Assembly (NCBI GenBank): GCA_005772855.1
Contig: SXIK01000035.1
Coordinates: forward strand, 1 to 33,209
Source of the DNA: Planctomycetia bacterium
Lineage (GTDB): Bacteria; Planctomycetota; UBA8108; SXIK01
Direction of reading: 5' to 3'
DNA: 33,209 nt
Shown: piece by piece, positions 4,401 to 27,212 of the stretch
Layout: each line of letters begins with the position of its first letter
Numbering within the stretch: position 1 is the stretch's first letter
Notes under the pieces: generated by a model
Database searches by the model: none
Seen by the model: only the letters and a program-made list of their open reading frames with translations
Told to the model about the DNA's origin: nothing
Made by a program: the position numbers and the translations under genes

Positions 4401-4497
4401 GCCGCAACCGGACGACACCGCTCGGGATGGGGCTCCCACGGATCCACCCGGCTCGGCGCAAGATCTTCAAGGCGCTGAGGACCCGGCCGCCAATTAG
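1483..4497 (+). CDS. Membrane-embedded spermidine-synthase-like protein with C-terminal TPR
   Basis: The 1004-residue protein has three parts. Residues 1-500 are a polytopic membrane region with roughly a dozen hydrophobic helices, and the opening 'GGTGLAYQVAWSKRF' is typical of the fused MFS-like/spermidine-synthase family. Residues about 490-760 are a Rossmann methyltransferase-fold polyamine-synthase-like domain, with the nucleotide-binding loop 'VIGFGSG' (552-558), 'DDGR' (606-609) and 'LSEPSNPW' (623-630). Residues about 885-950 contain two tetratricopeptide repeats, followed by a Pro/Ala-rich tail. True spermidine synthases are soluble and about 300 residues, so the substrate of this membrane form is unknown and it should not be called SpeE. 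AGGGG at 1472-1476 lies six bases before the ATG. It ends in TAG and converges on the giant minus-strand gene with a 91-nt gap, in which no clear terminator is seen. Confidence 0.88.
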   Translation: MSPTKNRGSLALATASALFFLSGGTGLAYQVAWSKRFSHVWGSSTLAMAAVIASFLLGLGLGAHLLGKFADRTRSGLFWYGVSEVAIGILAVIIPFEIQALRVVSAWIYPLLEQHPILHTLVRFLFTLIVIGPACLLMGGTLPLLIRHFTPPERGASASAGWLYALNTLGAAAGAYAAGFHLLPSWGLFKTNLVVAGLNIAIGAVAMFVAKVASQTRVTGFLEMPPPSVKSVSSHNPGAHELPLLYVTVALTGAASLILEMVWTRQLAVLLGGSTYAFSAMLFLLLIGIGTGSLLYHLLFRESQRNALVPAITIGVIALTAWIGKLLIPQLGVFVGTVKDLRANQGWNAAIAVGVSAVLELLPAIGMGLLFPLFIERTRKRAVDTGKAIGAIYAWNTVGSIAGATGTFLILVPRWGLARTAGIAIALYALALLLSFPIRSSGRQLVTLAALCGVMLVSWNGMVKQLDPLKTDLGFYLYGPNPDPENRFVNAHFREGASSNVFVTMTKQMDRASYALRVNGKVDASSVGDMNMQLGLAYLPMVLLPAARDICVIGFGSGTTSGAALLFPQTRVTCCEIESEVVAASPLFEDVNHSPEKSSRFQIVYDDGRSHLQGTKANYDIVLSEPSNPWIAGVSNLFTKEFYEEARRKLRPGGILAQWLQVYNFSPDDYVLVARTVLAVFPECALIRISSGDTILLASTAPIASSRELIDRGQALIDATPQVAADLTRYFRTTDVRALLLSHIILDTHGVRRLVAASHSGLHNTDLNLKLEFDAPLRLFRGAADDNTLTRILSHGDLRYYETVVELWGCTKNQASVLREIPKLLERSAQPELLRGLADLALKLDPERADLMVDRLALGPPEDAAEFAGSVERVLKLSSKEANRLGVRMFKERKTEKAIEVFRRILAVHPQSNSTWNNLAIAQDAAGRFDEAEQAFQRSLAIDPLHIDTAKSYQSFQQKRKAMSARSAQAQTAPQPDDTARDGAPTDPPGSAQDLQGAEDPAAN

Positions 4498-10795: not shown

Positions 10796-13700
10796 CTTGC
10801 TTCTCCCCCACGGCCGTGCACCGTGACCTTGAAAGGGTTGAGGTAGTCCGCCCTTCGCGCGCCGCTCGAGTCCCCCGTGACCTCGCCCGGCAAGCCGTCC
10901 AGACCGGGGAACTGGTACCCGTTCAGCTCCAGGGGTGAGGCCGGAACCAGCGCGCCAGCATCCGCGATGAACCGCCCGAAGGCTGGATCGAAGTGCCGCG
11001 CACCACTGGAGTGAAGACTCGATTCGAAGTCATGGTAGTTGCCGCCAAAGCCCATCGAGACGCCAAGGTTGGAGAAGTTGATCAGGCTTCCAAAGCTGTT
11101 CAAAACACGCGGCAGGCCAAATGGGTCGTATCGGTAGGACTCAAGGACCACCGCAGAGTCGTCCAGGAGCGCTGTGGGAGATCTCGCGGCATCCTGCAGG
11201 AACGAGAAGCTCCTGGCGGGAGCACTGGCTCCACGCAACCGCAAGACTTCAGGTGAGCGGTCGTCAACGTAGAGGTACTGCCGGAGCAGCTGGCTTTGAG
11301 AGTCCCGCTCCTCTGCAACCCGGTTTCCCACGTACGTGAAGCGAATCAGGCCTGGCGGCTGATCACGCGCAGGGATCTTCACGTCCTTCAAGAGACGTCG
11401 TCCCTTGAGCGAATAGTTCTCCGGGTCCTCAGCCCCGAACGCGTCATACCCATGGACAGCCACCGTGCTCGCGCCCCTGACGATTCGGACAAGCCGCCCG
11501 AGCGCATCGTAGGCATAGGAGAACTGACCCTTCGTCTTGAGGCTCCCACGAGCATCGTAGGTCAGCACATCTTCGTCCGATCGGATGTAAGAGTTGCGCG
11601 AGTCCACCTGGAGCTTCCGCACGGAGAAGTTGATTTCGAGGAGGCGCCAGGAATGGCTCCCATCGGTGTAGAAGACGATCTTTTCGAGCGGATCGATCGG
11701 CGGCACTCTCGGCTCAAAAACGTTCGGAAGGAACCTCTGAAGTCGATAGATCGAGTCGTACCGCCAGACCTCGCCAAGCTCATCGGCCCTGTGAATGGGT
11801 TTTTCGTAGAGTTTGAAGCCGTTTCGGTCGCGTCCATACTCAAAACCATGAAACGCTTCCCCGGCCGCATTACGGTAGACATGCTCGATAGGCTGACCGA
11901 AGACGTCAAATGCCACATTGCGCTGCACCCCGTCAACTTCCCTGAGGAAAGAGAGCGTGACGCCATTGGCCAGACGCTTCTCGAGCAAGCGCCCCGTGCC
12001 AAAATGGCGGTAGGTTGCGTACGTCCCCGTGGAGTCGGAAAGCGCGGTCACGCGGCCGGTTCTGTCGCGTGGCGTGGCAAATACACTGCCGTCGGGATAC
12101 TGGATCGAGACCTGTCGTGCAGCAAGGTCTCTCCCGATGGTAAACGTGAAGCCGTCTTGCGACTCCTCCTGCGTATCGCCGAGGGAGTCCCTCCGCAAAA
12201 TGGTCACGGCATCGTCGAGCGGATCCTCCGGCGAATTATTGTCGAAGGCCAGAGTCAAGCGAGAGAGGCCGTCATACTCAAAACGCTGGACGGTCGTCCC
12301 CTCCACGCCAGCCCCGCGCAGGAGCAACCTCTGGATGAGACGGCCCAGGACATCGAACTCCTGCGACACGACAGACCCATTGGCGTCGGTGATCTCCACC
12401 CCGCGGCCGTCCGCGGTCCGGCGGCGCGTCTCAACAACTCCTTCCGGCCAGATCTTCCTGGTGACACGACCCCAGGCATCCAGCTCGACGGACGTGCGAT
12501 GCTCGTTGTCGTCAACCCAGGCGATGAGACGGCTCAGATCGTCCCACTCGAACTTCTCGGTGATGATCCCATCGCGGTTGTACGGGCTTGTAATATCGAT
12601 CAGCTGCGAGCCTTCGCCGTCGGTGCGCAGCTCGCTCTGAGACTCGACCAGCCGACCCAGATTGTCATAAACGTACCGCGTGCGATTGCCGAAGCCATTC
12701 AGGTTCGTACGCTGACGCTCCGTCATGTAGGGACGGAGCGAAGCAAACTCGGGCTCATCCTCACCCACCGAGATCCCCTTCGCATCCGCGACCAGCAGAA
12801 CACGGCTCATCGCATCGTAGCGCGCCCGCCAGACCCCTCCGCCCGAATCGACGAGCATCGTCAAGCGATTCAACGGATCAAACGTGCGCAGGATCGTCTC
12901 AACCTCTCGGTAGCGCCCGAGCGTGCCATAGTCGGGGTCGTCGCCGACGCCAGGGTCAACGGGGTCAAGAGTCAAGCTCTCGCGGACCTCGCGGACGGCG
13001 TTGCCGTTCGCATCGCGCAAGTAAGACCGCGACCCGCCGAAAGGATCCAGCTCGTGCGCAAGCCGACCTGCGCTGTCGTACTCGCGCTTCCACTCGTTGC
13101 CCTCGAGGTCGATGCGTCGGACAAGAAGACCGCCGGCGTCGAAGAACCGTCTCTCCCTGAGAGCGGTGGCGCTCGCCCCGGGCCCTGCGCCGGGTGCAAA
13201 GCGGAAATGGACCGACTCGATCGAGCGACCCTGCTCATCGTGCGCATGGCAGGCACGAGAGAGGAGCACGTTACCGTGCCCACTTCCATCTACAGGTGTC
13301 GGTCCACCAGCTGAACCGAGGAAAGACTCGACAGTGATGTTGCCTTCGATGTCGCGATCAAGAACGCGCATGCCGCCAGCGGCGTCGATCACTCCGATCT
13401 CGCGGCCGAATCCATCGTAGCGATGCTCTTTTGCTCCCTCTGCAAGGTCACCTTCAATCCGCAAGAGATTGCCCCCTTCGTCGTGGAAGCTGCGGACGAC
13501 GGCTTCCTGTGGCGTCTCGACGGCCGTGCGGTGCTCGATCACGAGCCCGCGCTCGTCGCGGAGCCAGGTCTCGTCGGTGCCGATCACGGGCTGGATCACC
13601 CGGGCAAGCAGGCCGGTTGGCGAGTATCGGTATCGCGTGATGATGCTTCGCTCGGGTCCCACCTCCCCTCCGGAAACCTCCCGAGTCACCGTCACTGGCC

Positions 13701-16700
13701 GCCCCAGGAGATCGAATTCCGTGTCCGTGTCAAGAAATTGGTTAGCGGTGACGAGGAAGTGGCCTCCGCCGTCGGTTGACGTGTAGTTCTCGATTCGAGT
13801 CCGCGTCACGTTGCCATCGGCGTCGTAGATCCACTGACTCCGGTACTTCAAGGGCGGCGCAAGGCGGCGCTCCATCAACTCGCCCAGAGGGTTGTAGACA
13901 TGGAACTCGTCGTTTCCGTTCGCATCGCGTCGCGAGGCGAGGTAACCGCTTGCGTCGTAGGTGAGCTGCTCGACCACGACTTCACGGGGAGCACCCGCCG
14001 ATCCCTGATCGGCGATGCGACGGGCCAATAGCCCACCCGTCAGCGTGTCACGCCCAGGCCCCGTTTCGGGCGTGCCATCGCCGTTCCAATCCGTCTCGGG
14101 ATGATACTCCAGCCGCGTCGTTCGACCCGCCCCATCCCTCGTGAGAATGAGCTGACCCAATCGGTTGTACTGATAGCTGATGACGTACTCGACCGCCGGG
14201 CCGCCTCCGGGCGGAATCGCTGGCGGCAAAGCCTCGCGGATAACATTTCCTGACCGCTGTGAAGTCTCCCCGTCGCCGTTCAAGTCACCCAGAGCGAGGG
14301 TGATTCCAGATCGAGCGAGCGCCTCGGCCAGGTCATCCGCGTCAACGGCAGCTTCGGAGGCAAGAGCCGCGAGAGTACTACCCTCCTGATAGTCGAGAGT
14401 CCAGCGCCGCCGGTAGCGGCCAGGGCCTCCCGCACCGCCTGTTGGAGGCATGAACTCCGGGTCGTTGCCCCTCGGAGAGACCTCCTCGACGACAACGCCG
14501 AAGAGCGGATCACGGAGGTAACTCGTCACCGCAGGCTTGCCGGGCCCCGCGACCGTGGGCGCCGGATGATGCTCGACTCGGATGAGCGATGCCTGCGCGT
14601 AACGCAGGGGCGAGCCTTCATCCCGGGTGTAGACCTTGCGATCGCCCCGCGGCTCCGTCCTCGACGCCAGACACCCTTCCCGTGTCCATGTCCAGCGCGT
14701 CTCGTAAAAGGGAGGCAGAGTCCCCGGTGGCGGATGCAGATTGGCAGGATCGCGAGGACGTCCCTGCGGCACGGTGCGCACCCTCAGCGAAATCGGTAGC
14801 CCTGCTCCGCTCCAGACGACATCGCGCACGCGGCCTTCCTGATCAGTGAAGCGGGTAGTGCCCGCGGCGGAGAGCAGGAAGGACTCCAGGTCGGATCCCG
14901 AACGGTAGGAATCCGGCGCCGTCCGCCAGATCGCGTACTCGAACCCAACGGTACCGCCCGCGGGCACGCCCGACGCGTTCGTCCCACCCCAATCCTGGCG
15001 CACGACCCGATCAAACGATGGTTGCGTCGGGTCCATTCCGTAGACCACATGGATCCTCGGCAACCGCGTTGCCGCGACTTCCCGCGGGTCGATGATTTCC
15101 AGGAGGTTGTGGTTGAGGCGATCATCCGCATTGCCAGTGGAATAGACGTACTCGCGCCGGCGGCCTGCCGGAAAGGCATTGTCCGTGGGGGTGCTAACGA
15201 CCACCGGGCTACGCGCCGCCACGAGGTCGCCTGCGGAGCTGTACTCGAATACCACCTCGCGGCCGCTGGCATCGCGGATGAGCATTATGCGACCCTCGGA
15301 GTCGTGCTCGTAATCGACGCCGCGGCCAAGCGGATCGATTGCCTGCGAAATGAGGCCGTCGGCACCTCGCACCAGGAAGAGGTGATTCTGGCTTCGATCG
15401 GTAATCGACTCCAGTCGGCCACCCCGTGGAGTGCCATCGAGGGGGTGGTACCGGTATATAGTGCCATCTGGCTCCCTCTCGATGTAGAAGCCCTGCGCAT
15501 CGACGAAGAGACGCGCAAAGACGCCAACAGGTGACACAAACTGGCCGTCCACGGAGTCCAGGAGAAACTCGTCGAAGCTGCCCTTCCCATTCGCACGCAC
15601 GATGCTGCCGCCGTTCAGGCTGGGGTGGAGCCTCCGGTCCTCGTACTCGTGCTCCCAGTTCCAGCCCAGGGACCCCTTGAAGTTGTGACGACTCTCGTAG
15701 CGCCTCCGAAAAGCGTAGGGAAGACCACGACCCGGGAGGGGCAACTCGAGGTCGGTCTCCTCGACGAGGAGCTCGCCAGAGTGCGCAAGCACGTTGAAAC
15801 CGAGGGAGACACTCTCGGCTCGCTGGGGTACTTCCTGGAACCCTGGCTCTTGAACAATTACGCGACCTGACAGCGTGCCGGTGCGGCCGGCGAGCGGCCC
15901 GGGACGCGAAAGGAAGACGACGCCGCCCGTCCGGAGGCCTCGCCCTCCAGACGCAGTGATCGAGCCAGCCTCCTCACCCACAACACCGAGCGACGACTCA
16001 ACGTATTCACCAGCCGCCGCGCTATGCACGAACATCGGCACGGAGCAGCCAGCACGCTCGCGAACTCTGGGAACGCTGAGACTCGCCGGAGGATCGAACC
16101 GGACGCCCTCGGGCAGAATTGCGATGGGAACATCAGCGTGTAGGTCATCGGGGAACATTGCGGGCAAAGTCGAGAGAGCCAGCGAGGCCAGCGTGAGCGT
16201 TCCCGACTTCGAGCCGCCCGGGAACGTCACCGAGCCCGGCGCGATCTGGAGGCGCAAACCCGGCAATCCCTTCAGCGTCATGAGCGCACCCTGCGTCTCA
16301 CTCAGGAGCTGGCTGCGGGTCTTGACTCCGGAGGGATCTGTTGCCGGGGCCATACGAATTGCGTCCACGTGATTCGCGCGTCCGCTCACGGCGAACGACC
16401 GAACCTCGTGGGTTCTGAAACCAACGGCCACGGGCATCAAGAGCAAGTCACCGGCCGGCACGCCAGCGATACGATAGCCGCCGAAAGAATCCGTGAGGCC
16501 CGGAAGGGTGCCGCTTGAGGTGCGAAGCTGGACATCGATGCCGGGCATCGGCTGGCCTCGAGAGTTCAGCACCGAGCCCAACACCTCGGTGTCAGCGGCG
16601 GGGCCAGGAGCGAGGCCGCGAGCCTCGAACATTATTTCGGGCGACTGCGAGTGCGACGCTGCGATTGTGCTGAGCGAATCGACTCCTGGAGGTAGCCTTG

Positions 16701-18981
16701 TTGCCACGCTCGCCACCCCCGCGGCGCTCGTCACCACGGCACGCTCAACCTCTCCCGCGAAGAGGGCACCGCCCTTGACAACGCGGAAACGGACGGGCTC
16801 GCCAACCATCGGAGTGCCAAAATCGTCGATGAGGCGGACCTCCAGGGGCGTTGGCAGGTCCGCTCCCGCTGTTCCGGTGAAGGAACGCACACGGTGGGCC
16901 ACGAGAACGCGGCCGGTCCCCGGGTTCACGGGCAGCACAAAAGCGACGGGCGAGTTTGCCTGTGCGAGGCCGCTCACCTCCACCACCGAGAACCCGGCCC
17001 CACCGCCCGGCCTGAAGGACACGGCCGCACGGCCGTCAACGCCCGTGAGCCTCGATCTTGAGCGCAGGCCATCTACCAAACCATCTCCCAGCGTGACGCG
17101 AAACTCAAGGACCACGCTCCTCTGAGGCAGGTTGGCAGCATCGCGAGCCATGGCGATGAGCTGAACCGACGCCTCCTGGCCGGCCACAAGCGTCAGCCCG
17201 TCGCCCGAGTCAATGGCAAGGGAGGTGGCCGCCGCTCCTCCGCGAACCACCCTGTAATTGCGTGACGTGACGTTGCCCCTGGCGTCCTGAGCCACAAGCT
17301 GCACGGCATGCGAACCTGGCTCGAGCGGGAGATCCGCCAGGAACGTACCGTTTACAACGGTCGCCAAGACTCCGCCAATGGACAGCGTGATCTTGCCCTC
17401 AAGCTCTCGCGGCATGCCAAAGTCTCCGACCCGTCCCACGAAATGCGTGACACTTGACTCGGTGCGGTAACCCACGCTCGAGAGGAGCTGCCGCTCGGGC
17501 GGGTAGGTCAACTCGACGAGCGGTCCCTCGGTGTCGATGAAGAGCGGCGCCACAGCCTGCGCCCGCCGCGCAGCGGGCCCCGGGAGCGACGTCGTCGCCA
17601 CGAGCTCCTGCATGCCTGGGCCCAGGGTGAGGCTTGCACTCCAGGCGTCCCCGGTGACCTGGGCAACAACACCGTTAACAACGACGGGCGCCCCCGGCGG
17701 CTCGATCAAGCCTCCCACCGTCACAGGGGTGGAGGCGCCACTGCCCGCGAGCACGCCCAGCGGGTTCCGGATCGAGACCCTGGGCACGATCGAGTCGATC
17801 GTCACGGGGAGTGCCGCCTGTCCTCGATTCCCTACTGGATCGAAGGCCTCAGCCACGAGCGTGAGCGGACCGGGATCTAGCCGCAAGGTAACCTCGAACA
17901 GGCCTTTGTGGACCGAGGCCTGCGCTCCGTTCACGAAGACGTCGGCGGCAGGGTCATTCACCGTGCCCCGGACCTGCACCATGCTTGAAATGAGCGAGGC
18001 TCCCGAGGATGGCGAGGTGATCGCGATCGAGGGCGCGGTGACGTCGGGCAGTGTGGAAAATGGCGCGGCGACCTCGGGTAAGGGCTTCGCGTCGGGTCCG
18101 AAAGCCTGGGCGCTCCCGATCGCGGCTCGCAAGATGGTGACCGCCTTTTCACTCGAGCCGGCGGTGCCCGTTGCCTTCACAACGATGGTATTCAGACCGA
18201 GCGAAAGCGGCACCCTGCCCGTGAAGAAACCGCCCACGCTCGTGACTGGCAATCCTGCCGCACTCACTGAGGCCTGCGCGTCGGTGACGTGCCCGGACAC
18301 CGCGACCGTGTCCGACGTGACGACAGAGCCATTGGCGGGAGCGGTTATGCGAATGAGCGGGGCGCCATTGGCGCCATCCAGCACGCGCACGAACGCCTCG
18401 CGGAACACGCCACGGTAACGAACTCTGACGCGCGATTGGCCAACGCCTCGGGCCGTGATCAGTCCATCCTCGTTAACCTCGACAATTGCGGGATTGTCGA
18501 CACTGTAGGTCGTCGAAGGCGATGTGCGCACGTCCTCCCGCAACCCCGAAGAGTCCACCGCGACAACCTCGAGCACCACCGTATTCCCGCTTCGGTGGAA
18601 GAAAACCTCGAGAGGCTGCACGAGCAATTGGGCAGGGGGGTCGCGCCCGTTGGCGCAGCCCAGGAGATCGTTCGTGGGATCGACATCCTCACGCTCGAAC
18701 GGGGGTCTAGGCTCCGAACCGCCAAGAAAGAGGTAACTCAGCGCGCTGATGGCGTCGGTGATTTGGAGAGCTCCATTGTCGTCCACGTCGCACGCGTCGA
18801 TGCAAATCGGTTTCTGGCCGCCAAGGAAGAGGTAGCCGAGGAGCTTGACCGGATCTGTAATGTTGAAGCGGCCACTTTCATCGCAGTCCCCTCGACGGAA
18901 AACGCCCTGGCCCAGAGCCATCGAGCGTGTGCCAAGTGCAAGGAGGAGAACGCAAGTCAGCCACCTGGCCGAACGCTTCAC
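10792..18981 (-). CDS. YD-repeat / RHS protein with N-terminal dockerin-like and Ig-like domains
   Basis: From the GTG at 18981 this is 2729 residues. That start puts a clean signal peptide first (KRSARW then a Leu-rich core, cleavage near 'MALGQG'). An ATG at 19086 would add 35 residues before it, and neither start has a strong ribosome site. Domains in order: dockerin-like EF-hand pair with two 'YLFLGG' motifs (28-109), a Big_2-like domain (about 115-200), several Ig-like domains (about 205-560), an invasin/Big_1-like domain (about 585-700), a carboxypeptidase-regulatory-like domain (about 798-880), then from about 1070 a DUF6531-like entry and a long YD-repeat RHS shell. The RHS core ends at 'SGARHFDPAFGRFI' (about 2660), and only about 65 residues follow, too few for a usual toxin tip. 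Two calcium-loop-like insertions ('DLNGDGE' 1566-1572, 'DWNGDGT' 1631-1637) sit in the shell. It is the first gene of an operon with the 2068-residue protein. Confidence 0.9.
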   Translation of the reverse strand: MKRSARWLTCVLLLALGTRSMALGQGVFRRGDCDESGRFNITDPVKLLGYLFLGGQKPICIDACDVDDNGALQITDAISALSYLFLGGSEPRPPFEREDVDPTNDLLGCANGRDPPAQLLVQPLEVFFHRSGNTVVLEVVAVDSSGLREDVRTSPSTTYSVDNPAIVEVNEDGLITARGVGQSRVRVRYRGVFREAFVRVLDGANGAPLIRITAPANGSVVTSDTVAVSGHVTDAQASVSAAGLPVTSVGGFFTGRVPLSLGLNTIVVKATGTAGSSEKAVTILRAAIGSAQAFGPDAKPLPEVAAPFSTLPDVTAPSIAITSPSSGASLISSMVQVRGTVNDPAADVFVNGAQASVHKGLFEVTLRLDPGPLTLVAEAFDPVGNRGQAALPVTIDSIVPRVSIRNPLGVLAGSGASTPVTVGGLIEPPGAPVVVNGVVAQVTGDAWSASLTLGPGMQELVATTSLPGPAARRAQAVAPLFIDTEGPLVELTYPPERQLLSSVGYRTESSVTHFVGRVGDFGMPRELEGKITLSIGGVLATVVNGTFLADLPLEPGSHAVQLVAQDARGNVTSRNYRVVRGGAAATSLAIDSGDGLTLVAGQEASVQLIAMARDAANLPQRSVVLEFRVTLGDGLVDGLRSRSRLTGVDGRAAVSFRPGGGAGFSVVEVSGLAQANSPVAFVLPVNPGTGRVLVAHRVRSFTGTAGADLPTPLEVRLIDDFGTPMVGEPVRFRVVKGGALFAGEVERAVVTSAAGVASVATRLPPGVDSLSTIAASHSQSPEIMFEARGLAPGPAADTEVLGSVLNSRGQPMPGIDVQLRTSSGTLPGLTDSFGGYRIAGVPAGDLLLMPVAVGFRTHEVRSFAVSGRANHVDAIRMAPATDPSGVKTRSQLLSETQGALMTLKGLPGLRLQIAPGSVTFPGGSKSGTLTLASLALSTLPAMFPDDLHADVPIAILPEGVRFDPPASLSVPRVRERAGCSVPMFVHSAAAGEYVESSLGVVGEEAGSITASGGRGLRTGGVVFLSRPGPLAGRTGTLSGRVIVQEPGFQEVPQRAESVSLGFNVLAHSGELLVEETDLELPLPGRGLPYAFRRRYESRHNFKGSLGWNWEHEYEDRRLHPSLNGGSIVRANGKGSFDEFLLDSVDGQFVSPVGVFARLFVDAQGFYIEREPDGTIYRYHPLDGTPRGGRLESITDRSQNHLFLVRGADGLISQAIDPLGRGVDYEHDSEGRIMLIRDASGREVVFEYSSAGDLVAARSPVVVSTPTDNAFPAGRRREYVYSTGNADDRLNHNLLEIIDPREVAATRLPRIHVVYGMDPTQPSFDRVVRQDWGGTNASGVPAGGTVGFEYAIWRTAPDSYRSGSDLESFLLSAAGTTRFTDQEGRVRDVVWSGAGLPISLRVRTVPQGRPRDPANLHPPPGTLPPFYETRWTWTREGCLASRTEPRGDRKVYTRDEGSPLRYAQASLIRVEHHPAPTVAGPGKPAVTSYLRDPLFGVVVEEVSPRGNDPEFMPPTGGAGGPGRYRRRWTLDYQEGSTLAALASEAAVDADDLAEALARSGITLALGDLNGDGETSQRSGNVIREALPPAIPPGGGPAVEYVISYQYNRLGQLILTRDGAGRTTRLEYHPETDWNGDGTPETGPGRDTLTGGLLARRIADQGSAGAPREVVVEQLTYDASGYLASRRDANGNDEFHVYNPLGELMERRLAPPLKYRSQWIYDADGNVTRTRIENYTSTDGGGHFLVTANQFLDTDTEFDLLGRPVTVTREVSGGEVGPERSIITRYRYSPTGLLARVIQPVIGTDETWLRDERGLVIEHRTAVETPQEAVVRSFHDEGGNLLRIEGDLAEGAKEHRYDGFGREIGVIDAAGGMRVLDRDIEGNITVESFLGSAGGPTPVDGSGHGNVLLSRACHAHDEQGRSIESVHFRFAPGAGPGASATALRERRFFDAGGLLVRRIDLEGNEWKREYDSAGRLAHELDPFGGSRSYLRDANGNAVREVRESLTLDPVDPGVGDDPDYGTLGRYREVETILRTFDPLNRLTMLVDSGGGVWRARYDAMSRVLLVADAKGISVGEDEPEFASLRPYMTERQRTNLNGFGNRTRYVYDNLGRLVESQSELRTDGEGSQLIDITSPYNRDGIITEKFEWDDLSRLIAWVDDNEHRTSVELDAWGRVTRKIWPEGVVETRRRTADGRGVEITDANGSVVSQEFDVLGRLIQRLLLRGAGVEGTTVQRFEYDGLSRLTLAFDNNSPEDPLDDAVTILRRDSLGDTQEESQDGFTFTIGRDLAARQVSIQYPDGSVFATPRDRTGRVTALSDSTGTYATYRHFGTGRLLEKRLANGVTLSFLREVDGVQRNVAFDVFGQPIEHVYRNAAGEAFHGFEYGRDRNGFKLYEKPIHRADELGEVWRYDSIYRLQRFLPNVFEPRVPPIDPLEKIVFYTDGSHSWRLLEINFSVRKLQVDSRNSYIRSDEDVLTYDARGSLKTKGQFSYAYDALGRLVRIVRGASTVAVHGYDAFGAEDPENYSLKGRRLLKDVKIPARDQPPGLIRFTYVGNRVAEERDSQSQLLRQYLYVDDRSPEVLRLRGASAPARSFSFLQDAARSPTALLDDSAVVLESYRYDPFGLPRVLNSFGSLINFSNLGVSMGFGGNYHDFESSLHSSGARHFDPAFGRFIADAGALVPASPLELNGYQFPGLDGLPGEVTGDSSGARRADYLNPFKVTVHGRGGEAR

Positions 18982-19140
18982 TTCGGCTTTCGTGCCAAGA
19001 TTTGGGAGCAAGCTTGAATTCCCATGTGGGGCCAAGTGGCACGCAACGAAAGTGGGGGAACATTCGTCAGCGCCGAAGTCACTCATTTCAACCCATTGAC
19101 TGGTGGGAGTTTTGGTTTCTCCCCGGACCCAGCGCGGCCG

Positions 19141-19424: not shown

Positions 19425-20111
19425 ATGGCGAAAGAGACGATCCTTGTCATTGAAGATGAACGAGACATCATTGAGATCATTGAATATAACTTTGCGCGAG
19501 AAGGGTTCACGGTCCTCAGCGCAACCAACGGCGAGAAGGGGCTGGAAATCGCCCGCGCCAAGAGACCCTCGGTTGTGGTGCTGGACCTCATGCTCCCTGG
19601 CCTCGATGGAATCGAGGTGGCGAAGCGACTGAGACAGGACCCGGCAACGCGAGAAATCGCGATCGTGATGCTGACGGCAAAATCCGAGGAAAGCGATGTC
19701 ATCCTGGGGCTCGGCGTGGGAGCCGATGACTACGTCACGAAGCCGTTCAAAATGAAGGAGCTTCTGGCCCGCGTGAAGGCCGTACTGCGCCGGGGTCCGC
19801 TCCACGACGAGGGCCCAACAGGGAAGCGTCTCGAACTCGATGGACTTGTCATCGACAAGGCCAAGTATCAGGTATTTGTTGGCGGCAAGGAGATCCCTTT
19901 AACGCTCACGGAGTTCAAAATTCTTGCCTTGCTCGCGGGAGCGCCTGGCCGGGTGTACACCAGGGAGCTTCTGCTCCAGAAAATTCAAGGCGAAACCTTC
20001 GTCGATGAGCGAAATATCGACGTCCACATCCGGTCCATTCGAAAGAAACTCGGCGAGGAGAACGAATACATCGTAACGGTCCGTGGAGTCGGCTACAGAT
20101 TCAAAGAGTGA
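19425..20111 (+). CDS. PhoB/OmpR-family response regulator
   Basis: This 228-residue DNA-binding response regulator has an N-terminal receiver domain (1-120) with the acidic pair E10/D11, phospho-acceptor D54 ('VVVLDLMLPG'), T84 and K106 ('TKPF'). Its C-terminal winged-helix trans_reg_C domain (about 130-228) contains 'LTLTEFKILALL' and ends in 'VRGVGYRFKE'. This is the PhoB pattern and length. AGGA at 19413-19416 precedes the ATG, with a further GGAGG just upstream. The histidine kinase gene overlaps its 3' end, so the two form a cognate pair. A phosphate role is the usual one for this family. No pst or phoU genes are nearby, so the signal is left open and no symbol is given. It may regulate its own promoter through the 11-bp repeats upstream. 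Confidence 0.93.
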   Translation: MAKETILVIEDERDIIEIIEYNFAREGFTVLSATNGEKGLEIARAKRPSVVVLDLMLPGLDGIEVAKRLRQDPATREIAIVMLTAKSEESDVILGLGVGADDYVTKPFKMKELLARVKAVLRRGPLHDEGPTGKRLELDGLVIDKAKYQVFVGGKEIPLTLTEFKILALLAGAPGRVYTRELLLQKIQGETFVDERNIDVHIRSIRKKLGEENEYIVTVRGVGYRFKE

Positions 20112-21498
20112 TTCAATCCAGATCCCGACGCCTCCGCGGCGCCCCACGGAAAGCAAGAAGCAGCCAGGATTTGCTCTGTGGCGTTCGAGCTTCCTTTGGC
20201 GCTCCCACATCCTCACGGGTTCGCTGGTCGCCATCGCAGTCCTGCTGGGCGGCTGGGAGGGCTTCTTGACGGCCGGATTGCTGGGTGGAGTCCTTGTCTA
20301 CTGGAACATCCGCAATGTCATGTCACCCATCTCGACCATCGCCAACGCTGCAGAAGCCATGGCAAGGGGCTCCTACGATCATCAGATTGCTGCCTCGGAG
20401 TTCGATGAAGGAGCCATCTCGGCCCTGGGACAGGCCTTGAACTTGATGTCCGGGGAGCTTGCGCAGCGGCTCAACGCGATCGCGCTGGACCGAATGCGCC
20501 TCGAGACCGTGCTTGCCGCGACGCTCGAAGGAGTGATCGCGCTCGACCGTGAGGGCCGGGTAACGCTCATGAATCAGGCGGCCCATCGTCTCCTGGGCAT
20601 CTCGCCAGGATCGTCCATCGGGCGCCCCTTGAGCGAGACTTGCCGCAACTTGAGCCTCGGCGAGCTCGCCCGGGAATCGATGCAAGAGAATCAGCTTCGC
20701 ACCCTGGAGGTCACGGAGGTGGGCAAGACGCTCGAGGTCTATGCGACACCGCTCGGATCGTCCACGGGGGTTGTGCTCGTGGTGCACGACGTCACCGAAG
20801 TCCGCCGGCTCGAATCAGTCCGGCGCGACTTCGTGGCCAACGTCTCGCACGAGCTGAAGACGCCTCTCACCGCGATCCGGGCTTACCTCGAAACTCTGCT
20901 CGACGACGACGAATTCAACAACCCCGAGAAACACGTCCGTTTCTTGAAAAAAATCGAGCTGCACGCAAACCGCCTCACTGCGCTCATCACCGACCTCCTG
21001 AGCCTGTCTCGGATCGAGTCCGGCGACGCCTATAGCCAGCGCCAGAGGGTCAACTTGTCGGACATGGTGCTGGCTTCCCACCAGAGGCTCGCCCCCAACG
21101 CCGAACAGAAGGGACTCCGGGTTGAGATCCAACTTCCCTCGGAGTCCATGTACGTCCTGGGCGACGTGGAGGCCTTTCACCAGATCTTCGACAACTTGAT
21201 CGACAACGCCATCAAGTACACCGAGCCTGGGGGGCACGTGGAGATATCCGTGGCGCGAATCAACGGCCACATCCGCGCCTGCGTGGTGGACACTGGAGTC
21301 GGCATACCCGGGGAGGATCTGCCGCGAATTTTCGAGCGGTTTTACCGCGTCGACAAGGCTCGTTCGCGGGAGCTCGGCGGCACCGGGCTCGGACTCTCCA
21401 TCGTGAAGCATCTCGTGCAGTCTCTTGATGGCGAAATTCAGGTCGAGAGCGAGGTCGGGAAGGGATCACGCTTCAGCGTGACGTTTCAGGCAGCTTGA
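20083..21498 (+). CDS. PhoR-like sensor histidine kinase (HAMP-PAS-HisKA-HATPase)
   Basis: The 471-residue sensor kinase is paired with the preceding regulator. Two hydrophobic helices near residues 42-75 are separated by only a short turn ('GGWEG'), so there is almost no external sensor domain. Then come a HAMP-like linker (about 75-125), a PAS domain (about 130-235), a HisKA domain with phospho-acceptor H256 ('NVSHELKTPLTAIRAYL'), and a HATPase_c domain. The latter has the N box 'DNLIDNAIKY' (370-379), the G1 box 'DTGVGIP' (403-409) and the later 'GTGLGLS'. The start is a GTG lying 29 nt inside the regulator gene. No better in-frame start is seen, so the N-terminus is uncertain. Overlap implies co-transcription and coupling. 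The PAS domain or the membrane itself probably carries the input. Confidence 0.92.
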   Translation: MESATDSKSDSIQIPTPPRRPTESKKQPGFALWRSSFLWRSHILTGSLVAIAVLLGGWEGFLTAGLLGGVLVYWNIRNVMSPISTIANAAEAMARGSYDHQIAASEFDEGAISALGQALNLMSGELAQRLNAIALDRMRLETVLAATLEGVIALDREGRVTLMNQAAHRLLGISPGSSIGRPLSETCRNLSLGELARESMQENQLRTLEVTEVGKTLEVYATPLGSSTGVVLVVHDVTEVRRLESVRRDFVANVSHELKTPLTAIRAYLETLLDDDEFNNPEKHVRFLKKIELHANRLTALITDLLSLSRIESGDAYSQRQRVNLSDMVLASHQRLAPNAEQKGLRVEIQLPSESMYVLGDVEAFHQIFDNLIDNAIKYTEPGGHVEISVARINGHIRACVVDTGVGIPGEDLPRIFERFYRVDKARSRELGGTGLGLSIVKHLVQSLDGEIQVESEVGKGSRFSVTFQAA

Positions 21499-21722
21499 CT
21501 CCCCGGCGATCTGCTCCTGGCCTCTCTCCGTGACTTTCGCGTTGAAATCAGCGACCCTGTCGGCTATAGCCCAGGTGCACGTTTGGCCAGTGAGCCTTTG
21601 AAAGGAGGCTCCAACGCAGGGGAGTGCGTCGGCCCCCTCCGAGACGAGTCGTTGAAGGCTCGTTCCAAGTCGGAGGTTGCGTGGTTCGAGTAAAAGTGGA
21701 CTCAAGAGGTGGAGACAGCCCT

Positions 21723-24284
21723 ATGGCCGCGACGAGCGGGGACCGCCCCCAACGCTCGAGCGGGCGACCCGAGGCCTTGAGCCTCGGCATCCCCGGGATC
21801 AAGGTGAAGAGCCCCATTGGCTCCGGCATACGGGGCACGGTCTACTCCGTCACCGACGGTCGTTGCACGCTGGCTCTCAAGGTCCTGCGCCGGGGGATCC
21901 ACGTGGATCGAGAGGCCCTCTCACGCCTGAGCAAGGCAGCGCCCAACCGCATCCGCCATCCCAACCTGGCGCCGATCGAGCTCATGGGCGAGCTTCAGGA
22001 TGGCTCTCTTTACTACGCCACCCCATTTCTTCGTGGTGATTCCCTCGACCGACTACTCCACGACCTCCAGCCTGGTGCCGCTCCACGGCCGTCGCTCAGC
22101 GTCTTCGCTCCAGACGTGGATGGAGCACCGCACCCTCAGCTCCCGACGCGCGGCGCCGAGCTTTTCGCCGAGGCGCTCGAGGGCCTCACCATCGTCCACA
22201 CCGCCGGAATCGTGCACCGGCGGCTGAGCCCGCGAAACCTCCATCTCACCCCTCGGGGCCGGTTGATGATCACCGACTTCGGCGGAGATGCCACGACAGA
22301 AGCTGGCGATGATTTGGTGTACCGTGCGCCCGAACAGCTCGTCCCCTACCCCGAAAGCGTGGGCCCACCGGCCGACGTCTACGCGATGGGCGTGATCCTC
22401 TATGAGGCACTCACAGGGAAGAGGCCCTTCACAGCAGAGAATCCAAGAGAACTGAAGGAATCAATTCGGGAAGGCCGGTTCGATCCGCCGGGCGCTCATG
22501 CGCCGAATCTGCCGCACAACCTCGAGGCCTGCGTCTTGAAGGCAATGGCGTTCGAACCCGCCGACCGTTACCGCGACGCCGAGGCGTTCGCGGCCGACCT
22601 CCGCAGGTTCCTACACGGCGAGGAGCCCATCGCTGCTCGCCGCGAAGAGAAGCCTCAACCCACCGGGGGCCACTTGAGGGCCGCCCGGGGCGACTGGCTT
22701 CGAGTCGCTGCCGCTGCGGTGATTCTTGGCGCCTTCGTCGCCTGGCTATGGCCCCGGGGAGATACCCCGGATGCCCGTGCGGTATCGCTCAACCTTGGCA
22801 TCGCGAGCAAGGAGCCGGACGCTGCGCCGGAAGCCAAGCCAGATCGGCTGGTCCCGCAGGCACAGATTCTCCACTCCCGGGGCCCGACAGAAGCCGTGAC
22901 TGCGCCGCCGACAGTCCTCAGTACCAGCTTGCTGAGCGATCCTACAGCGCAGGAGCTCACAGGCGGCAATGAGTACGCGAAGTACGCAGCCCTCACCCGC
23001 CTGCGCCTCGAGGTTGAAAAAGGCACGCGCCCCAGGTCCGATGCCCTGCTCGCTGCCTGGGCCATCCAGGCGAGAGAGCCAACGCTGCGGCGGCACGCGA
23101 TCGAGACTCTTGGATACTCGGCCGATGGCGACTCCACCCTGCGTGTGCTTGCGATCGGAGAGGACCTGCCCCGGATCACGCTCGACGCGGAGGCCTTCTA
23201 TTCACTCCACGACTCCCTCCTCCGGATCGCCGATCCAATAGCCACGCGCACGATTTGCCTCTGGAGCCTCGAAGAGAGCGAGACAGTCGACCGGGGACCC
23301 ACTCCTCTCAGCATCCACCTCGACCCCAACCTCCGACTCGAGATCGGCGAGGGTTCGCCGCGAAATCTGACAATTCGCTGGATCCGAGCTCGCGCGTTGA
23401 TAGATCCGGAAAGTCTCATCGAGGCCGTGCCCCACCTGGCGGCCCGAGACGATGTCCTGGCCGAGTTGATCGCCGCATTGCGCAGCCTGGGTGGGCCCGG
23501 GGCCCGGGAAGCCTTGGCTCGAATCGTCCGGGAACATAGCTACTCGGCCGGTCACGCCGCTTTGAGCGCGCTCCGGGACCTCGGCGCTCACGCCGAGGTC
23601 CTCGACGTGGCCCAGGGCGAACTTCCCCGGGCACTCCGGGCAGAAGCAATTCGGATGCTGGGCGCTGAGCTCGGAGTTCTTGCTCTTGAAGAGCTGAGAA
23701 TCTTGGCGATCACGAGCCCGGAGGCGGAGCTGAGACGGATTGCCTTCGCGAGCCTATCCAAGCTCGACGACCCCGAAGCGCTCGCCGCCATTCCAGCCTT
23801 TATTCGCGACCCCGAGTTGCGCGAAGGCGCTCTCAAGTGGGCGGCTCGAATCTCGGGAGACGCATCGACACCCGTGATGATCGAGCTCCTGGGTGAAAAC
23901 GACTTCTCCGCCCAGAGCCTCGCGAAAGAACGGCTCAAGACCGCCGGACCTCGCGACCTGCTCGCACCCCTCGTTGACCGTCTGCTCGATTCGCGCCCAT
24001 TCACCCGGGAATGCGCCTTCGAGGTACTCCTGGCGCGCGGAGACCTTCCACGAATCTCCGAGGCTATCGCCCGTATCTTTGGGAGGCGGATCCAGCCCGC
24101 GCCCGAGGAAGCCCGAAAGGCGGTCGCGGCAATGCGCGGAGCGCTTGAAGCGGTCCATCCCCTGGCGGTTCGCCTGAGAAATGCCGCCAGGCAGGCGGTA
24201 TCCCGGGCCTCAAGCCTTCTGTGGGCCGAGAGCGGGCTCTCCTACTTGGCCCGAATGCTCTTGCAGCCTGCGCAGGATCGTTAA
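21723..24284 (+). CDS. Membrane Ser/Thr protein kinase-like protein, probable pseudokinase, with HEAT repeats
   Basis: An 853-residue protein with a Hanks-type kinase fold (about residues 20-290). The β3 lysine is K53 ('LALKVL') and the Mg-binding DFG is intact at 185-187. The catalytic loop, however, reads 'HRRLSPRN' (165-172): the HRD aspartate is Arg and the following Lys is Ser. Phosphotransfer is therefore doubtful and a pseudokinase scaffold is likely. One membrane helix (about 324-343) separates it from an external region with HEAT-like helical repeats (about 420-850). The ATG at 21723 is chosen because GAGGTGGAG (21706-21714) sits eight bases upstream. An in-frame GTG at 21624 would add 33 residues but has a poorly placed ribosome site. 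The 224 nt after the histidine kinase hold no other gene. lspA follows after ten bases, so the two are probably co-transcribed. Confidence 0.88.
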   Translation: MAATSGDRPQRSSGRPEALSLGIPGIKVKSPIGSGIRGTVYSVTDGRCTLALKVLRRGIHVDREALSRLSKAAPNRIRHPNLAPIELMGELQDGSLYYATPFLRGDSLDRLLHDLQPGAAPRPSLSVFAPDVDGAPHPQLPTRGAELFAEALEGLTIVHTAGIVHRRLSPRNLHLTPRGRLMITDFGGDATTEAGDDLVYRAPEQLVPYPESVGPPADVYAMGVILYEALTGKRPFTAENPRELKESIREGRFDPPGAHAPNLPHNLEACVLKAMAFEPADRYRDAEAFAADLRRFLHGEEPIAARREEKPQPTGGHLRAARGDWLRVAAAAVILGAFVAWLWPRGDTPDARAVSLNLGIASKEPDAAPEAKPDRLVPQAQILHSRGPTEAVTAPPTVLSTSLLSDPTAQELTGGNEYAKYAALTRLRLEVEKGTRPRSDALLAAWAIQAREPTLRRHAIETLGYSADGDSTLRVLAIGEDLPRITLDAEAFYSLHDSLLRIADPIATRTICLWSLEESETVDRGPTPLSIHLDPNLRLEIGEGSPRNLTIRWIRARALIDPESLIEAVPHLAARDDVLAELIAALRSLGGPGAREALARIVREHSYSAGHAALSALRDLGAHAEVLDVAQGELPRALRAEAIRMLGAELGVLALEELRILAITSPEAELRRIAFASLSKLDDPEALAAIPAFIRDPELREGALKWAARISGDASTPVMIELLGENDFSAQSLAKERLKTAGPRDLLAPLVDRLLDSRPFTRECAFEVLLARGDLPRISEAIARIFGRRIQPAPEEARKAVAAMRGALEAVHPLAVRLRNAARQAVSRASSLLWAESGLSYLARMLLQPAQDR

Positions 24285-24294
24285 GATATGCAGA

Positions 24295-24921
24295 ATGCTT
24301 GAGCACCGCACGTCAAGAACTCTGCTTGCGATTGTATTCGTGGTCGTGGCCGTGACCATTACGGGCCTGGACCTCTGGACCAAGAAGGCCGTCTTCGAAT
24401 TCTTGAACGTAAAGAACGCTGGTAACCCCCCTCACGTGATCGCACAGGAGCGGTACGAGATCCTTCCGGGATGGTTCGAGCTCGAGGCCAACTACAACTA
24501 CGGTGCCTTCAGTGGCTGGTTTGCGGAGCACACGGGCTGGCTTGCGTTGCTCTCGGGCGCTGCGCTCCTGATCATCGTTGTCATCTTCGTCCTCCAGCTT
24601 CGACAACCCGAAGGACCGGGATGGCTGTTCACGCTGTCTCTCGGACTCCTGTGGGGCGGAACTTGCGGTAACTTTTATGACCGATTCGTGCTAAAGGCAG
24701 TGCGCGACTGGATCAAGTGGTACTACGTCTCGGCCAATGGCAAGGAACACGTCTGGCCGAATTTCAACATCGCCGACAGCGCGATTTGCACGGGAGTCGG
24801 AATGCTGGTCTTGCTCGAGTTACTGCGCGCCACGAGGCAGAAGAAGGACGTACCGTCGAGCGTCCCTGCCCTGGGCTCGGAGCCGCAAGCAAGAGCAACG
24901 CAAGAGTTGGGTCCTCAATGA
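24295..24921 (+). CDS. lspA: Lipoprotein signal peptidase (signal peptidase II)
   Basis: LspA is an inner-membrane aspartyl protease that removes signal peptides from diacylglyceryl-modified prolipoproteins. All family boxes are recognisable in these 208 residues: 'DLWTKKAV' (D26...T29 K30), the 'NYNYGAFSGWF' box, and the two catalytic aspartates D129 in 'GNFYDRF' and D161 in 'FNIADSAI'. Four hydrophobic helices are visible. A longer loop than usual between the catalytic boxes ('SANGKEHVW') and a C-terminal tail after helix four make it longer than the usual 160-170 residues. The ATG at 24295 is the first start giving a normal N-terminus. It is ten bases after the previous stop, with only a weak AAGA ribosome site. 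Its 3' end overlaps the convergent cupin gene by seven bases. Confidence 0.93.
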   Translation: MLEHRTSRTLLAIVFVVVAVTITGLDLWTKKAVFEFLNVKNAGNPPHVIAQERYEILPGWFELEANYNYGAFSGWFAEHTGWLALLSGAALLIIVVIFVLQLRQPEGPGWLFTLSLGLLWGGTCGNFYDRFVLKAVRDWIKWYYVSANGKEHVWPNFNIADSAICTGVGMLVLLELLRATRQKKDVPSSVPALGSEPQARATQELGPQ

Positions 24922-25244
24922 GAGGCCTCGGGGTGCGGCGCCATGAAGACGAGACACACGGCTTCGGCCTCCGACTCGTTCGCGACCCCGTGAGGCTCTC
25001 CAGCAGAGGCAAGTACGATCTCGCCTTCCCGGAGCGTTTGACTTGACTCCCCCACTGTTACCTTCGCTTCGCCCCGGAGGATGTAGTACAGCTTGTCGTT
25101 CAACGCATGACTGTGGACCTTCTGCGACTGGCCCGGGAGCAGACAGTAGAGATCGCAGAAAAATCGCGAAGTCTCAAAGATGTTCACCTTCATCATCTTC
25201 TTCGGGTTGAAAGATTCGAGGCTCCTGACTTTTTTGGCGTTCAT
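24915..25244 (-). CDS. Small cupin-domain protein
   Basis: A single-domain cupin of 109 residues. The first cupin motif reads 'HSHALNDKLYYILRG' with H44 and H46 as likely metal ligands. The usual Glu of motif 1 is not in place (Asp50/Lys51 sit there). The second motif supplies H85 in 'AGEPHG'. This order is typical of small double-stranded β-helix proteins; the function cannot be given. The ATG at 25244 is preferred because AAAGG sits just upstream on the coding strand. An upstream in-frame start at 25298 would run into the divergent MutS-like gene. It faces that gene across 24 bp, so the promoters must overlap or lie within coding sequence. It converges on lspA with a 7-nt overlap. Confidence 0.85.
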   Translation of the reverse strand: MNAKKVRSLESFNPKKMMKVNIFETSRFFCDLYCLLPGQSQKVHSHALNDKLYYILRGEAKVTVGESSQTLREGEIVLASAGEPHGVANESEAEAVCLVFMAPHPEASH

Positions 25245-25268
25245 ATTGACCTTTCTTGAAATTTCAGA

Positions 25269-27212
25269 ATGCGACTCCACCAAGCTACTTCCAAGCACCC
25301 TGGAAATCCCGAGGAGATCGAGAAGCTCTCGGCCGAAATCTCACGACTGGAACGTGCCGCGAGTCGGATCTCGCACCTCCGGCTCCTGTGCTTCCTCGGG
25401 GCCATCGCAGCCTTCGTGCCAATCTCTCACTCTGTCTTGTTCCCCGTGATCGGGGGCACCCTGGCCCTGACGCTGTTCGCGGCTCTCGTCTTCGCGCACT
25501 CACACATCCTCGACCGAGTCGACATTTTCAAGGCGAAACGGCTCCTTCTGACGGAGAAGGAGGCTCGCAGGGGCTCGAGGCGTCAGACTCGCGCCGCCCC
25601 GGTGATCGTCGAGAACGCCGTGCCCCTCGAAAAGGGCCTGCGAGTCCACCGTCCCGAGCCGCCTTCGAGCACCCTCGACCCGGCGACCGCTGATGATCTC
25701 GGTCTCTTCGGCAGCGTCAGCCAGCGCTCGGTCTTCGGCCTTCTTGACACCTCAAGCACGCTCTTCGGCTCCCGCCGTCTTCAACGAATACTGCTCCATC
25801 CGCTGGAAGTCGCTTCCGACATTCGTACGCGGCAGGCATCCGTGCTCGAGCTCACCACGGAAGCAGCCCTGCGTGAACGCTTGCTCGCGGCGGCTCTCCC
25901 GTTGCGCGAGCACGACCTCTCGCCCATTGCCAGGATGCTTTCAGAGCCTCCCGTCTTTACAGGACGAACCGGGCTCCTGCTTGTCATCAACGCCCTGGGT
26001 TCGCTGGCCCCGATCCTGCTTCTCGCCTCCGCCGTCACGCGAAGCCTTGGCCCACTCCAGCTGATCGTGCCCTTGATCTTCCTCAACATGGCCGTCATCG
26101 GCGCCAACGTGAAGAGGTCGAACCCTGTCCGCGATCGCCTCCTCCTCCTGGGGCCCCTTCTTGATACGTTTCTGCGGCTTGAGGCCGTCGTCACAGCGCA
26201 CCCACCACGCTCGGATGAGCTCTCGGCGGCTGCGCAATGTGTAACGAAGCTCAAGCCTCACGCAGCAAGACTGGGGAGGTTTGTCCGCCTTCTCGAGCTA
26301 CACTCCTTCGGACTTCTCTTCGAGCTCTGGAATCTCCTCACGCTCTGGGAGCTCAGGATCCTTCCGCTTGCGGAGAAAGTCGTTGCGGAGAGGCGGCCAC
26401 TGCTCGAGAACGGGGTCGGCGCCCTGGGGGAGATCGAGGCCCTCGTCTCCCTGTCGTTACCCCTTGCCGAGCAGGAGGGCTTCGAGATCCCGAGCGTCCT
26501 GGATGGCACTCGAGCGGTGCTCGAGGCGGCCGAGATCGGCCATCCCAATCTCGAGGCACGGGAGGCAGTGAGGAACCCGCTGGCACTCGGCAACGAATCG
26601 ACCGTGCTGATCGTGACAGGCTCCAACATGGCCGGCAAGTCAACCTATCTCAAGTCGATCGGCGTCAACCTCGCTCTGGCAAACGCCGGAGGACCCGTCT
26701 GCGCGAAGGACTTTCGATGGACTCCCCTGTGGCTCTACTCCGACATCAACGTGCGCGATAGCCTGGACGACGGCAAGAGCTACTTCCAGGTCGAAGTCGA
26801 GCGCGTCTTGAAGGTGATCCAGAAAGCCCGGGAATCAGCACGGATCCTGGGCATCTTCGACGAGCTATTCAGGGGCACGAACTCGGAGGAGCGGATTGCT
26901 CTGGTGCGCGCCATCCTGAGACACCTGCGCGACACGGGGGCCCTGGTGGTGGTGGCGACGCACGACCTGGCGCTCACGAGGCTCGTGACGGACGATGGGG
27001 AACGAGGCATGCGCAACCTCCACTTCCGCGAGACGGTAGAAGGCACCGAGATGCGCTTCGACTACCGCCTCAGGGAGGGCCCTGCCGTATCGCGCAACGC
27101 CATCCGCGTCCTGGAAGCCGTGGGGTACCCCGAGTCGATTACCCGCGAGGCGCGCCGCGAGTGCAGCCCGCCGGCCCGGCCGCTCCTTGACAGAATTGAA
27201 GCTCCAAAATAG
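25269..27212 (+). CDS. Membrane-anchored MutS-family ATPase (not canonical MutS)
   Basis: 647 residues. The C-terminal part is a MutS domain V ATPase, with Walker A 'TGSNMAGKSTYL' (G451 to T459), Walker B 'LGIFDELFRGTN' (D531 E532) and the downstream 'VVVATHDLAL' His switch. Upstream is a MutS core/lever-like helical region. The N-terminus has an amphipathic helix and two hydrophobic helices (about 40-76), and another hydrophobic pair lies near 235-275, so it is probably membrane-bound. There is no N-terminal mismatch-recognition domain and no Smr nuclease domain, so neither canonical MutS nor MutS2 fits. Membrane MutS-like proteins of this layout are known as uncharacterised paralogues. No clear ribosome site precedes the ATG. 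Its stop is TAG. It converges on the FKBP gene. Confidence 0.88.
   Translation: MRLHQATSKHPGNPEEIEKLSAEISRLERAASRISHLRLLCFLGAIAAFVPISHSVLFPVIGGTLALTLFAALVFAHSHILDRVDIFKAKRLLLTEKEARRGSRRQTRAAPVIVENAVPLEKGLRVHRPEPPSSTLDPATADDLGLFGSVSQRSVFGLLDTSSTLFGSRRLQRILLHPLEVASDIRTRQASVLELTTEAALRERLLAAALPLREHDLSPIARMLSEPPVFTGRTGLLLVINALGSLAPILLLASAVTRSLGPLQLIVPLIFLNMAVIGANVKRSNPVRDRLLLLGPLLDTFLRLEAVVTAHPPRSDELSAAAQCVTKLKPHAARLGRFVRLLELHSFGLLFELWNLLTLWELRILPLAEKVVAERRPLLENGVGALGEIEALVSLSLPLAEQEGFEIPSVLDGTRAVLEAAEIGHPNLEAREAVRNPLALGNESTVLIVTGSNMAGKSTYLKSIGVNLALANAGGPVCAKDFRWTPLWLYSDINVRDSLDDGKSYFQVEVERVLKVIQKARESARILGIFDELFRGTNSEERIALVRAILRHLRDTGALVVVATHDLALTRLVTDDGERGMRNLHFRETVEGTEMRFDYRLREGPAVSRNAIRVLEAVGYPESITREARRECSPPARPLLDRIEAPK

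Follow-up and report, generated by a model that had tools for sequence, protein, structure and literature searches.

Bacterial pseudokinases are a little-studied group. In mycobacteria one of them is part of MviN (MurJ), where it is attached to a membrane protein of envelope biogenesis. SelO and SidJ are without the HRD Asp, keep the Lys and the metal-binding Asp, and have a proven alternative catalysis. In the accessible part of a 2025 review, bacterial pseudokinases are defined by the loss of the beta-3 Lys, the HRD Asp or the DFG Asp, and the families ActPs1-3, GLW, CP1, DYD and DLHK are described (PMC12599244). A comparable layout is found in YukC/EssB of type VIIb secretion, in which a cytoplasmic pseudokinase, one membrane helix and an all-helical outside domain form a non-catalytic scaffold that, according to the accessible part of PMC9600267, does not bind ATP. 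Kinases of the PknB type, such as PknB and PknA of M. tuberculosis, have the order kinase, membrane helix and extracytoplasmic part. In planctomycetes, kinases have been counted by their K-D-D sites, and by this measure 525 of the 610 kinases of one species were judged functional; the word pseudokinase is not used in the accessible text of that work (PMC11032199); the string Planctomyc- has no occurrence in the accessible text of PMC12599244.

The locus described here lies on contig SXIK01000035.1 of a Planctomycetia bacterium, in a stretch of 33,209 nucleotides that we call the window. Its central gene is an 853-aa open reading frame (Table 1), with the translation given in the preliminary description. 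The start is supported by a Shine-Dalgarno-like sequence ahead of it, and a promoter and terminator scan found no promoter-like site on the upstream side on the same strand. Pfam recognizes a kinase domain (PF00069, 73.2 bits against a cut-off of 31.7) and HEAT repeats (HEAT_2, 35.9 bits against 27.7) as its sole matches, and together with the membrane helix found by hydropathy these agree with the earlier account of a kinase fold fused to a membrane helix and HEAT repeats. The AlphaFold2 model, made from an alignment of eight family members (mean pLDDT 75.3, pTM 0.46), gives good local confidence to the kinase fold and to the helical solenoid at residues 401-786, and low confidence to residues 308-402, which join the two folded parts and contain the membrane helix.

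Table 1. Features of the pseudokinase locus (positions are those of the window unless another locus is named)
Feature	Position	Strand	Basis
Pseudokinase gene: kinase fold, membrane helix, HEAT solenoid; 853 aa	21723..24284	+	ORF, Pfam, model
Shine-Dalgarno-like GAGGTGGAG ahead of pseudokinase start	21706..21714	+	read from sequence
Kinase-fold domain, residues ~27-300	21801..22622	+	Pfam, AlphaFold2, PDB sequence and fold matches
Glycine loop GSGIRG, residues 33-38; Arg37 is the loop tip	21819..21836	+	alignment
Beta-3 Lys53	21879..21881	+	alignment; 8/8 orthologues
Catalytic loop HRRLSPRN, residues 165-172; Arg167 at catalytic Asp site	22215..22238	+	alignment
DFGG, residues 185-188; metal-binding Asp185	22275..22286	+	alignment; Asp in 8/8 orthologues
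Single membrane helix, residues ~325-343, basic side facing kinase domain	22695..22751	+	hydropathy
HEAT alpha-solenoid, residues ~401-786, predicted extracytoplasmic	22923..24080	+	Pfam, model; topology inferred
lspA, signal peptidase II, 10 nt past pseudokinase stop	24295..24921	+	TIGR00077, 83.8 bits, cut-off 73.95
PhoB-like response regulator, upstream neighbour	19425..20111	+	Pfam, NCBIfam; in window genome and G001 only
PhoR/PnpS-like histidine kinase, upstream neighbour	20083..21498	+	Pfam, NCBIfam; in window genome and G001 only
A2 gene copies	L041 3558-4535; L042 9011-9988; L043 8761-9717; L044 7490-8440; L040 6608-7594; L072 11028-11927		

The kinase fold is Hanks-type and PknB-like. 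M. tuberculosis PknB and PknA are its nearest solved relatives both by sequence, among the best 60 of 1103 PDB matches (phmmer E 2.7e-24 for PknB), and by fold (Foldseek of the model against PknB, TMt 0.74-0.81). It differs from the PknB type in having Arg for the HRD Asp, in the loss of the loop Lys and the P+1 GT, in a short activation segment and in the absence of PASTA repeats, of which Pfam shows none; the PASTA kinase equivalog NF033483 (Stk1/PknB) scores 117.6 bits, below its cut-off of 450. Similarity to the anti-phage kinases PD-T4-6 and MADS6 is confined to the kinase domain, while the neighbours in the window are lspA and two-component genes. An insert-like conserved stretch (SL...G...P) precedes helix E in the pseudokinases and occupies residues 124-140 (22092-22142) in the window protein.

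The preliminary description had read a catalytic loop lacking both the catalytic Asp and the loop Lys beside an intact beta-3 Lys and DFG, and had taken this for the profile of a pseudokinase; translation and alignment agree with the reading, and the orthologues with the profile. Including the window protein, eight orthologues were found in eight of the ten genomes of the order examined, spread over three families: G001 belongs to the window's own family, G007 goes together with one genus (G002, G004, G006 and G008), and G003 represents the third. In all eight the HRD Asp is replaced by Arg, encoded by CGG in five, CGC in two and CGA in one, within loops that otherwise vary (HRRLSPRN, HRRLSGRN, HLRLTPNN, HGRISPGN in two, HGRICSGN, HGRISSGN and HGRIHPGN). 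The loop Lys is missing throughout, being replaced by Ser (as in the window), Thr, Cys or His, and no acidic residue of the catalytic loop is invariant across the eight. No member has the P+1 GT either, with Thr alone remaining in G007, and DFG and APE lie 19-20 residues apart in seven members and 42 in G003, against 25-62 in the other domains of the window's genome that are aligned at both ends. At the alpha-C site an acidic residue occupies one of two adjacent positions in six orthologues and neither in two, and for this reason we do not claim the alpha-C Glu as completely lost; with this residue and the Thr of G007, the loss of catalytic features is incomplete. Under a definition that requires the conserved loss of at least one of the beta-3 Lys, HRD Asp and DFG Asp, the family qualifies by the HRD Asp, lost in 8/8, and of the residues expected in an active Hanks kinase it lacks this Asp and the loop Lys and keeps the beta-3 Lys and the DFG Asp in every member.

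Among the other kinase domains of the window's genome, Asp is present at HRD in 40 of the 42 with the catalytic loop covered, and the GT or GS of the P+1 loop in 37 of 40. Kinase-like domains of that genome without the HRD Asp are the second tandem domain at G000:C40:12364-13128 (L099, SGGLSPET/PFG) and the domain at G000:C24:53334-54002 (L127, HGNLRPEN/DPG), both of which fall outside the family clade in the tree.

That tree comprises 89 kinase domains, limited to those covering at least 80% of an alignment HMM that also served the motif counts and was seeded with 19 own-genome kinases picked for an intact HRD motif. The eight orthologues form a single clade in it (support 0.999, stem 0.65), and the catalytic Asp is present in 79 of the 81 non-family domains; the stem is long and the neighbours of the family are weakly supported. 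When a profile of the eight was run against 392 genomes of the phylum, with only five candidates per genome scored, the eight gave 394-536 bits and the next best 223.5, a gap that is partly by construction because the profile was built from the same eight sequences. All 22 non-family loci from this search have HRD and GT or GS. A scan of public genome contigs gave 23 loci, seven of them the relatives already named (JACQVW010000010.1, JAFGKN010000644.1, CAJWMA010000012.1, JAKUSY010000112.1, NZOA01000018.1, DCKY01000143.1 and JANQLS010000085.1; six labelled Planctomycetota or Planctomycetes and one 'uncultured bacterium'). Fifteen of the other 16 could be aligned (L141 gave no row) and 14 of these have the catalytic Asp, the one without it being L151 (HFGISPES); an lspA frame was recognized near none of the 16. 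From the public contigs and the phylum search, the family is therefore known here from one Planctomycetota order only, and a search among viral contigs found no relatives. The G003 copy, which scores 101 bits with the window protein alone as query, no better than ordinary kinases, is assigned to the family by position, motif, architecture and tree.

The family is under purifying selection, with dN/dS of 0.12-0.23 among the computable pairs within the genus (g3; G006/G008 was not computable owing to N in the sequence) and, for the window and G001, 0.41 at a dS of 1.4 by one method, the other method giving no value. Close orthologues with an intact HRD, which would have made the window's loop a strain-specific mutation, were looked for among the orthologues and none was found. 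The Asp-to-Arg change is thus a conserved and monophyletic family trait, not a local mutation or the product of chance. Conserved loss of a catalytic residue in a bacterial Hanks fold is what the family shares with ActPs1-3, GLW, CP1, DYD and DLHK; none of the families in the accessible part of PMC12599244, however, has Arg at the HRD Asp while the beta-3 Lys and DFG are intact, and neither this motif nor this lineage is among them. According to the same accessible text, the HRD and beta-3 sites of ActPs2 carry Asn and Arg, respectively, HRD and/or DFG persist in DYD and DLHK, and CP1 has a COG3899 domain and no membrane helix, whereas the window protein has one membrane helix and only kinase and HEAT matches in Pfam. 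MviN, too, has a pseudokinase, attached there to a membrane protein of envelope biogenesis, but its beta-3, HRD and DFG positions are all degraded and it is fused to MurJ (PMC12599244, accessible part), while the family described here lies beside LspA.

The motifs that hold the nucleotide have been retained. All eight orthologues have the beta-3 Lys, the loop Asn and the DFG Asp (G003 reads DFNG), and also the Gly loop, which is always GxGxRG with Arg at its tip; among 38 further kinase loops from the same genome, none has Arg there. The window protein has 23 Arg in ungapped kinase columns, and three are invariant in the family, namely those at the loop tip, at the HRD position and in a late RY motif, the last of which we take to be a canonical structural residue of kinases. 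Known kinases have both the Gly-loop tip and the HRD Asp turned towards the pocket's phosphate end, and the other two invariant Arg are therefore expected near it. Since no member has lost the Gly loop, the beta-3 Lys, the loop Asn or the DFG Asp, it is plausible that the pocket is able to bind ATP, although the Arg at the HRD position could itself occupy the nucleotide site. Phosphate transfer is unlikely, since the protein has lost the base, the Lys that partners it and the P+1 anchor but has kept the nucleotide-holding motifs, and judged by these residues its catalytic inactivity is well supported. EssB differs here, since the accessible part of PMC9600267 reports a degraded Gly loop and no ATP binding. 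The window protein also has HEAT repeats instead of the EssB helices and is linked to lspA; no YukC family match to it was found in Pfam at E 0.01, and no type VII parts were found among the window proteins scanned.

A membrane helix is found by hydropathy in all eight orthologues, and the basic residues that precede it, together with the nature of the domain, suggest that the kinase fold is cytoplasmic and the helical part extracytoplasmic. The C-terminal part varies. It consists of a linker and HEAT repeats in the window protein and G001, combines HEAT repeats with a short TPR-like helical piece in G007 and G003, and in the four genus members is only the short helical piece, which runs to the protein end without HEAT repeats (the TPR-like reading was made by eye, and the TPR_2 match in G007 reaches only E 0.076).

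The gene that follows the pseudokinase is lspA in 8/8 loci, so the part of the earlier account that placed the gene before lspA extends to the whole family. Measured to the first possible lspA start, the two genes lie 10 nt apart in the window (taking the ATG at 24295; an earlier in-frame ATG lies at 24181), 10 nt in G001, 7, 12 and 15 nt in three genus members, 78 nt in G007 and 200 nt in G003, and hence 7-15 nt in five of the seven measured loci. G004, where the lspA frame opens directly past the pseudokinase frame, was left out of these counts because its lspA start was missed by the simple gene caller. The order genomes without the pseudokinase, G005 and G009 (80% and 55% complete), gave no lspA match either. 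Elsewhere in the class none of 16 lspA loci has a kinase in its visible flanks (two with less than 1 kb upstream), nor has any of the 30 loci examined elsewhere in the phylum (flanks of ~1.5 kb); an ancestor with an intact HRD beside lspA was sought at these same loci and no kinase was found.

The two-component pair, which the preliminary description had placed directly upstream, is indeed there in the window but does not extend beyond G001, and it is therefore a family-level feature. Directly before the pseudokinase in six of the eight loci lies instead A2, a gene whose conserved product is 299-328 residues long and begins with a signal-like sequence. It has no match in the window's genome (96% complete) and only a weak one in G001 (4.9e-4), away from the pseudokinase locus, and for its product we found no Pfam match over cut-off, no NCBIfam match and no PDB fold match at E<=0.001. 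With the HEAT region missing from four orthologues and the two-component pair restricted to one family, the constant unit is the pseudokinase, its membrane helix and lspA. An earlier proposal of a sensor or scaffold for envelope status accordingly keeps the conserved lspA link, with the two-component link confined to one family and a whole genus doing without the external HEAT region; any sensing part would be the pseudokinase, the membrane helix or the short helical stalk rather than HEAT as such.

From the conservation of the operon we infer a functional link between the pseudokinase and LspA, bearing in mind that linkage is no proof of function. The explanation that we favour, with moderate confidence, is that the gene product is a membrane scaffold or switch, nucleotide-competent and dead for phosphotransfer, that is coupled to lipoprotein processing. 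Against it count the incomplete loss of catalytic features, the strong differences of the extracytoplasmic part from family to family, with HEAT lost in 4/8, and the presence of A2, the third gene of the unit, in no more than six of the eight loci. In such a protein the cytoplasmic kinase fold would be tethered by its one membrane helix and would bear a helical extracytoplasmic part, HEAT and/or TPR-like. Either the arginine-lined pocket would bind a ligand or a constitutive lock would form between Arg and the DFG Asp, and in either case the conformation of the domain would be set. The membrane helix would then pass this state to the helical arm, which may contact LspA, the product of the next gene, or its lipoprotein substrates, as a scaffold or switch for them. 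More generally, the role of the pseudokinase is probably that of a switch or scaffold rather than an enzyme. A bolder version, which we put forward only tentatively and with a fairly low expectation that it is right, would make the protein a dedicated regulator of lipoprotein maturation: the pocket, lined by the Arg of the loop tip and that of the HRD position, would read a cytoplasmic nucleotide, the helix and arm would gate LspA or feed it prolipoproteins, and an order-wide family would have exchanged a catalytic base for a phosphate-binding Arg. We know of no dedicated LspA regulator, and a search of the open-access literature found none, nor any description of this pseudokinase family or of its link with lspA. 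If the link is true, it would mean a signalling input to lipoprotein maturation in these bacteria; an invariant Arg in place of one catalytic residue, intact nucleotide motifs and a fixed neighbour make LspA a concrete candidate partner.

Other readings of the same facts have to be weighed. MviN and FhaA are a precedent for a pseudokinase partnering an FHA protein, and the window's genome has dozens of intact kinases, as the HRD counts above indicate, so the pseudokinase might partner an active Hanks kinase or an FHA protein and share no more than a promoter with lspA. We consider this unlikely, as the lspA linkage is exclusive and conserved over three families while the other neighbours vary. 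The kinase fold might instead catalyse another reaction, such as the AMPylation of SelO or the glutamylation of SidJ, with the two Arg posing ATP anew; the nucleotide-holding motifs retained in 8/8 would fit this, and both enzymes are active without a canonical HRD motif (PMC12599244, accessible part). It is nevertheless an improbable reading, given that the alpha-C Glu is not invariant, that the model shows a short alpha-C helix (residues 63-69) and that no match to SelO or SidJ, which are separate families, appears in Pfam or among the best 60 of 1103 PDB matches; a sequence relation between them and the window family was not found.

Certain kinases with atypical motifs are active, and K53 and D185 are present, which might speak for a still-active kinase with another residue as catalytic base. 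This we regard as very improbable, because the loop Lys, the P+1 GT and the usual activation segment are all gone, Arg sits at the base and the catalytic loop offers no invariant acidic residue in its stead. That the loss of catalytic residues reflects a gene in decay or an assembly error is hardly credible: the identical change occurs in eight independent assemblies with three synonymous Arg codons, the frames are full-length and dN/dS, at 0.12-0.23, is far under 1, and we reject it.

Some other genes of the window deserve mention. The gene at 1483-4497 (+) encodes a protein of 1004 residues that has spermine-synthase as well as TPR domains; in the four genus members a relative of it (~30% over parts) lies beside the pseudokinase unit but on the other strand, perhaps as a trace of an older gene order. 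Two adjacent giant genes on the - strand (10792-19086 and 4589-10795), the stop of one overlapping the start of the other, encode products of 2764 aa, in which dockerin-like and RHS/YD-like stretches are seen by eye, and of 2068 aa, with TSP3, LVIVD and Big_7 repeats. Finally, a protein with MutS domains V/III is encoded at 25269-27212 (+) and shows by eye membrane-like hydrophobic stretches near its N-terminus; its gene and a divergent cupin gene (24915-25298, -) overlap at their starts.
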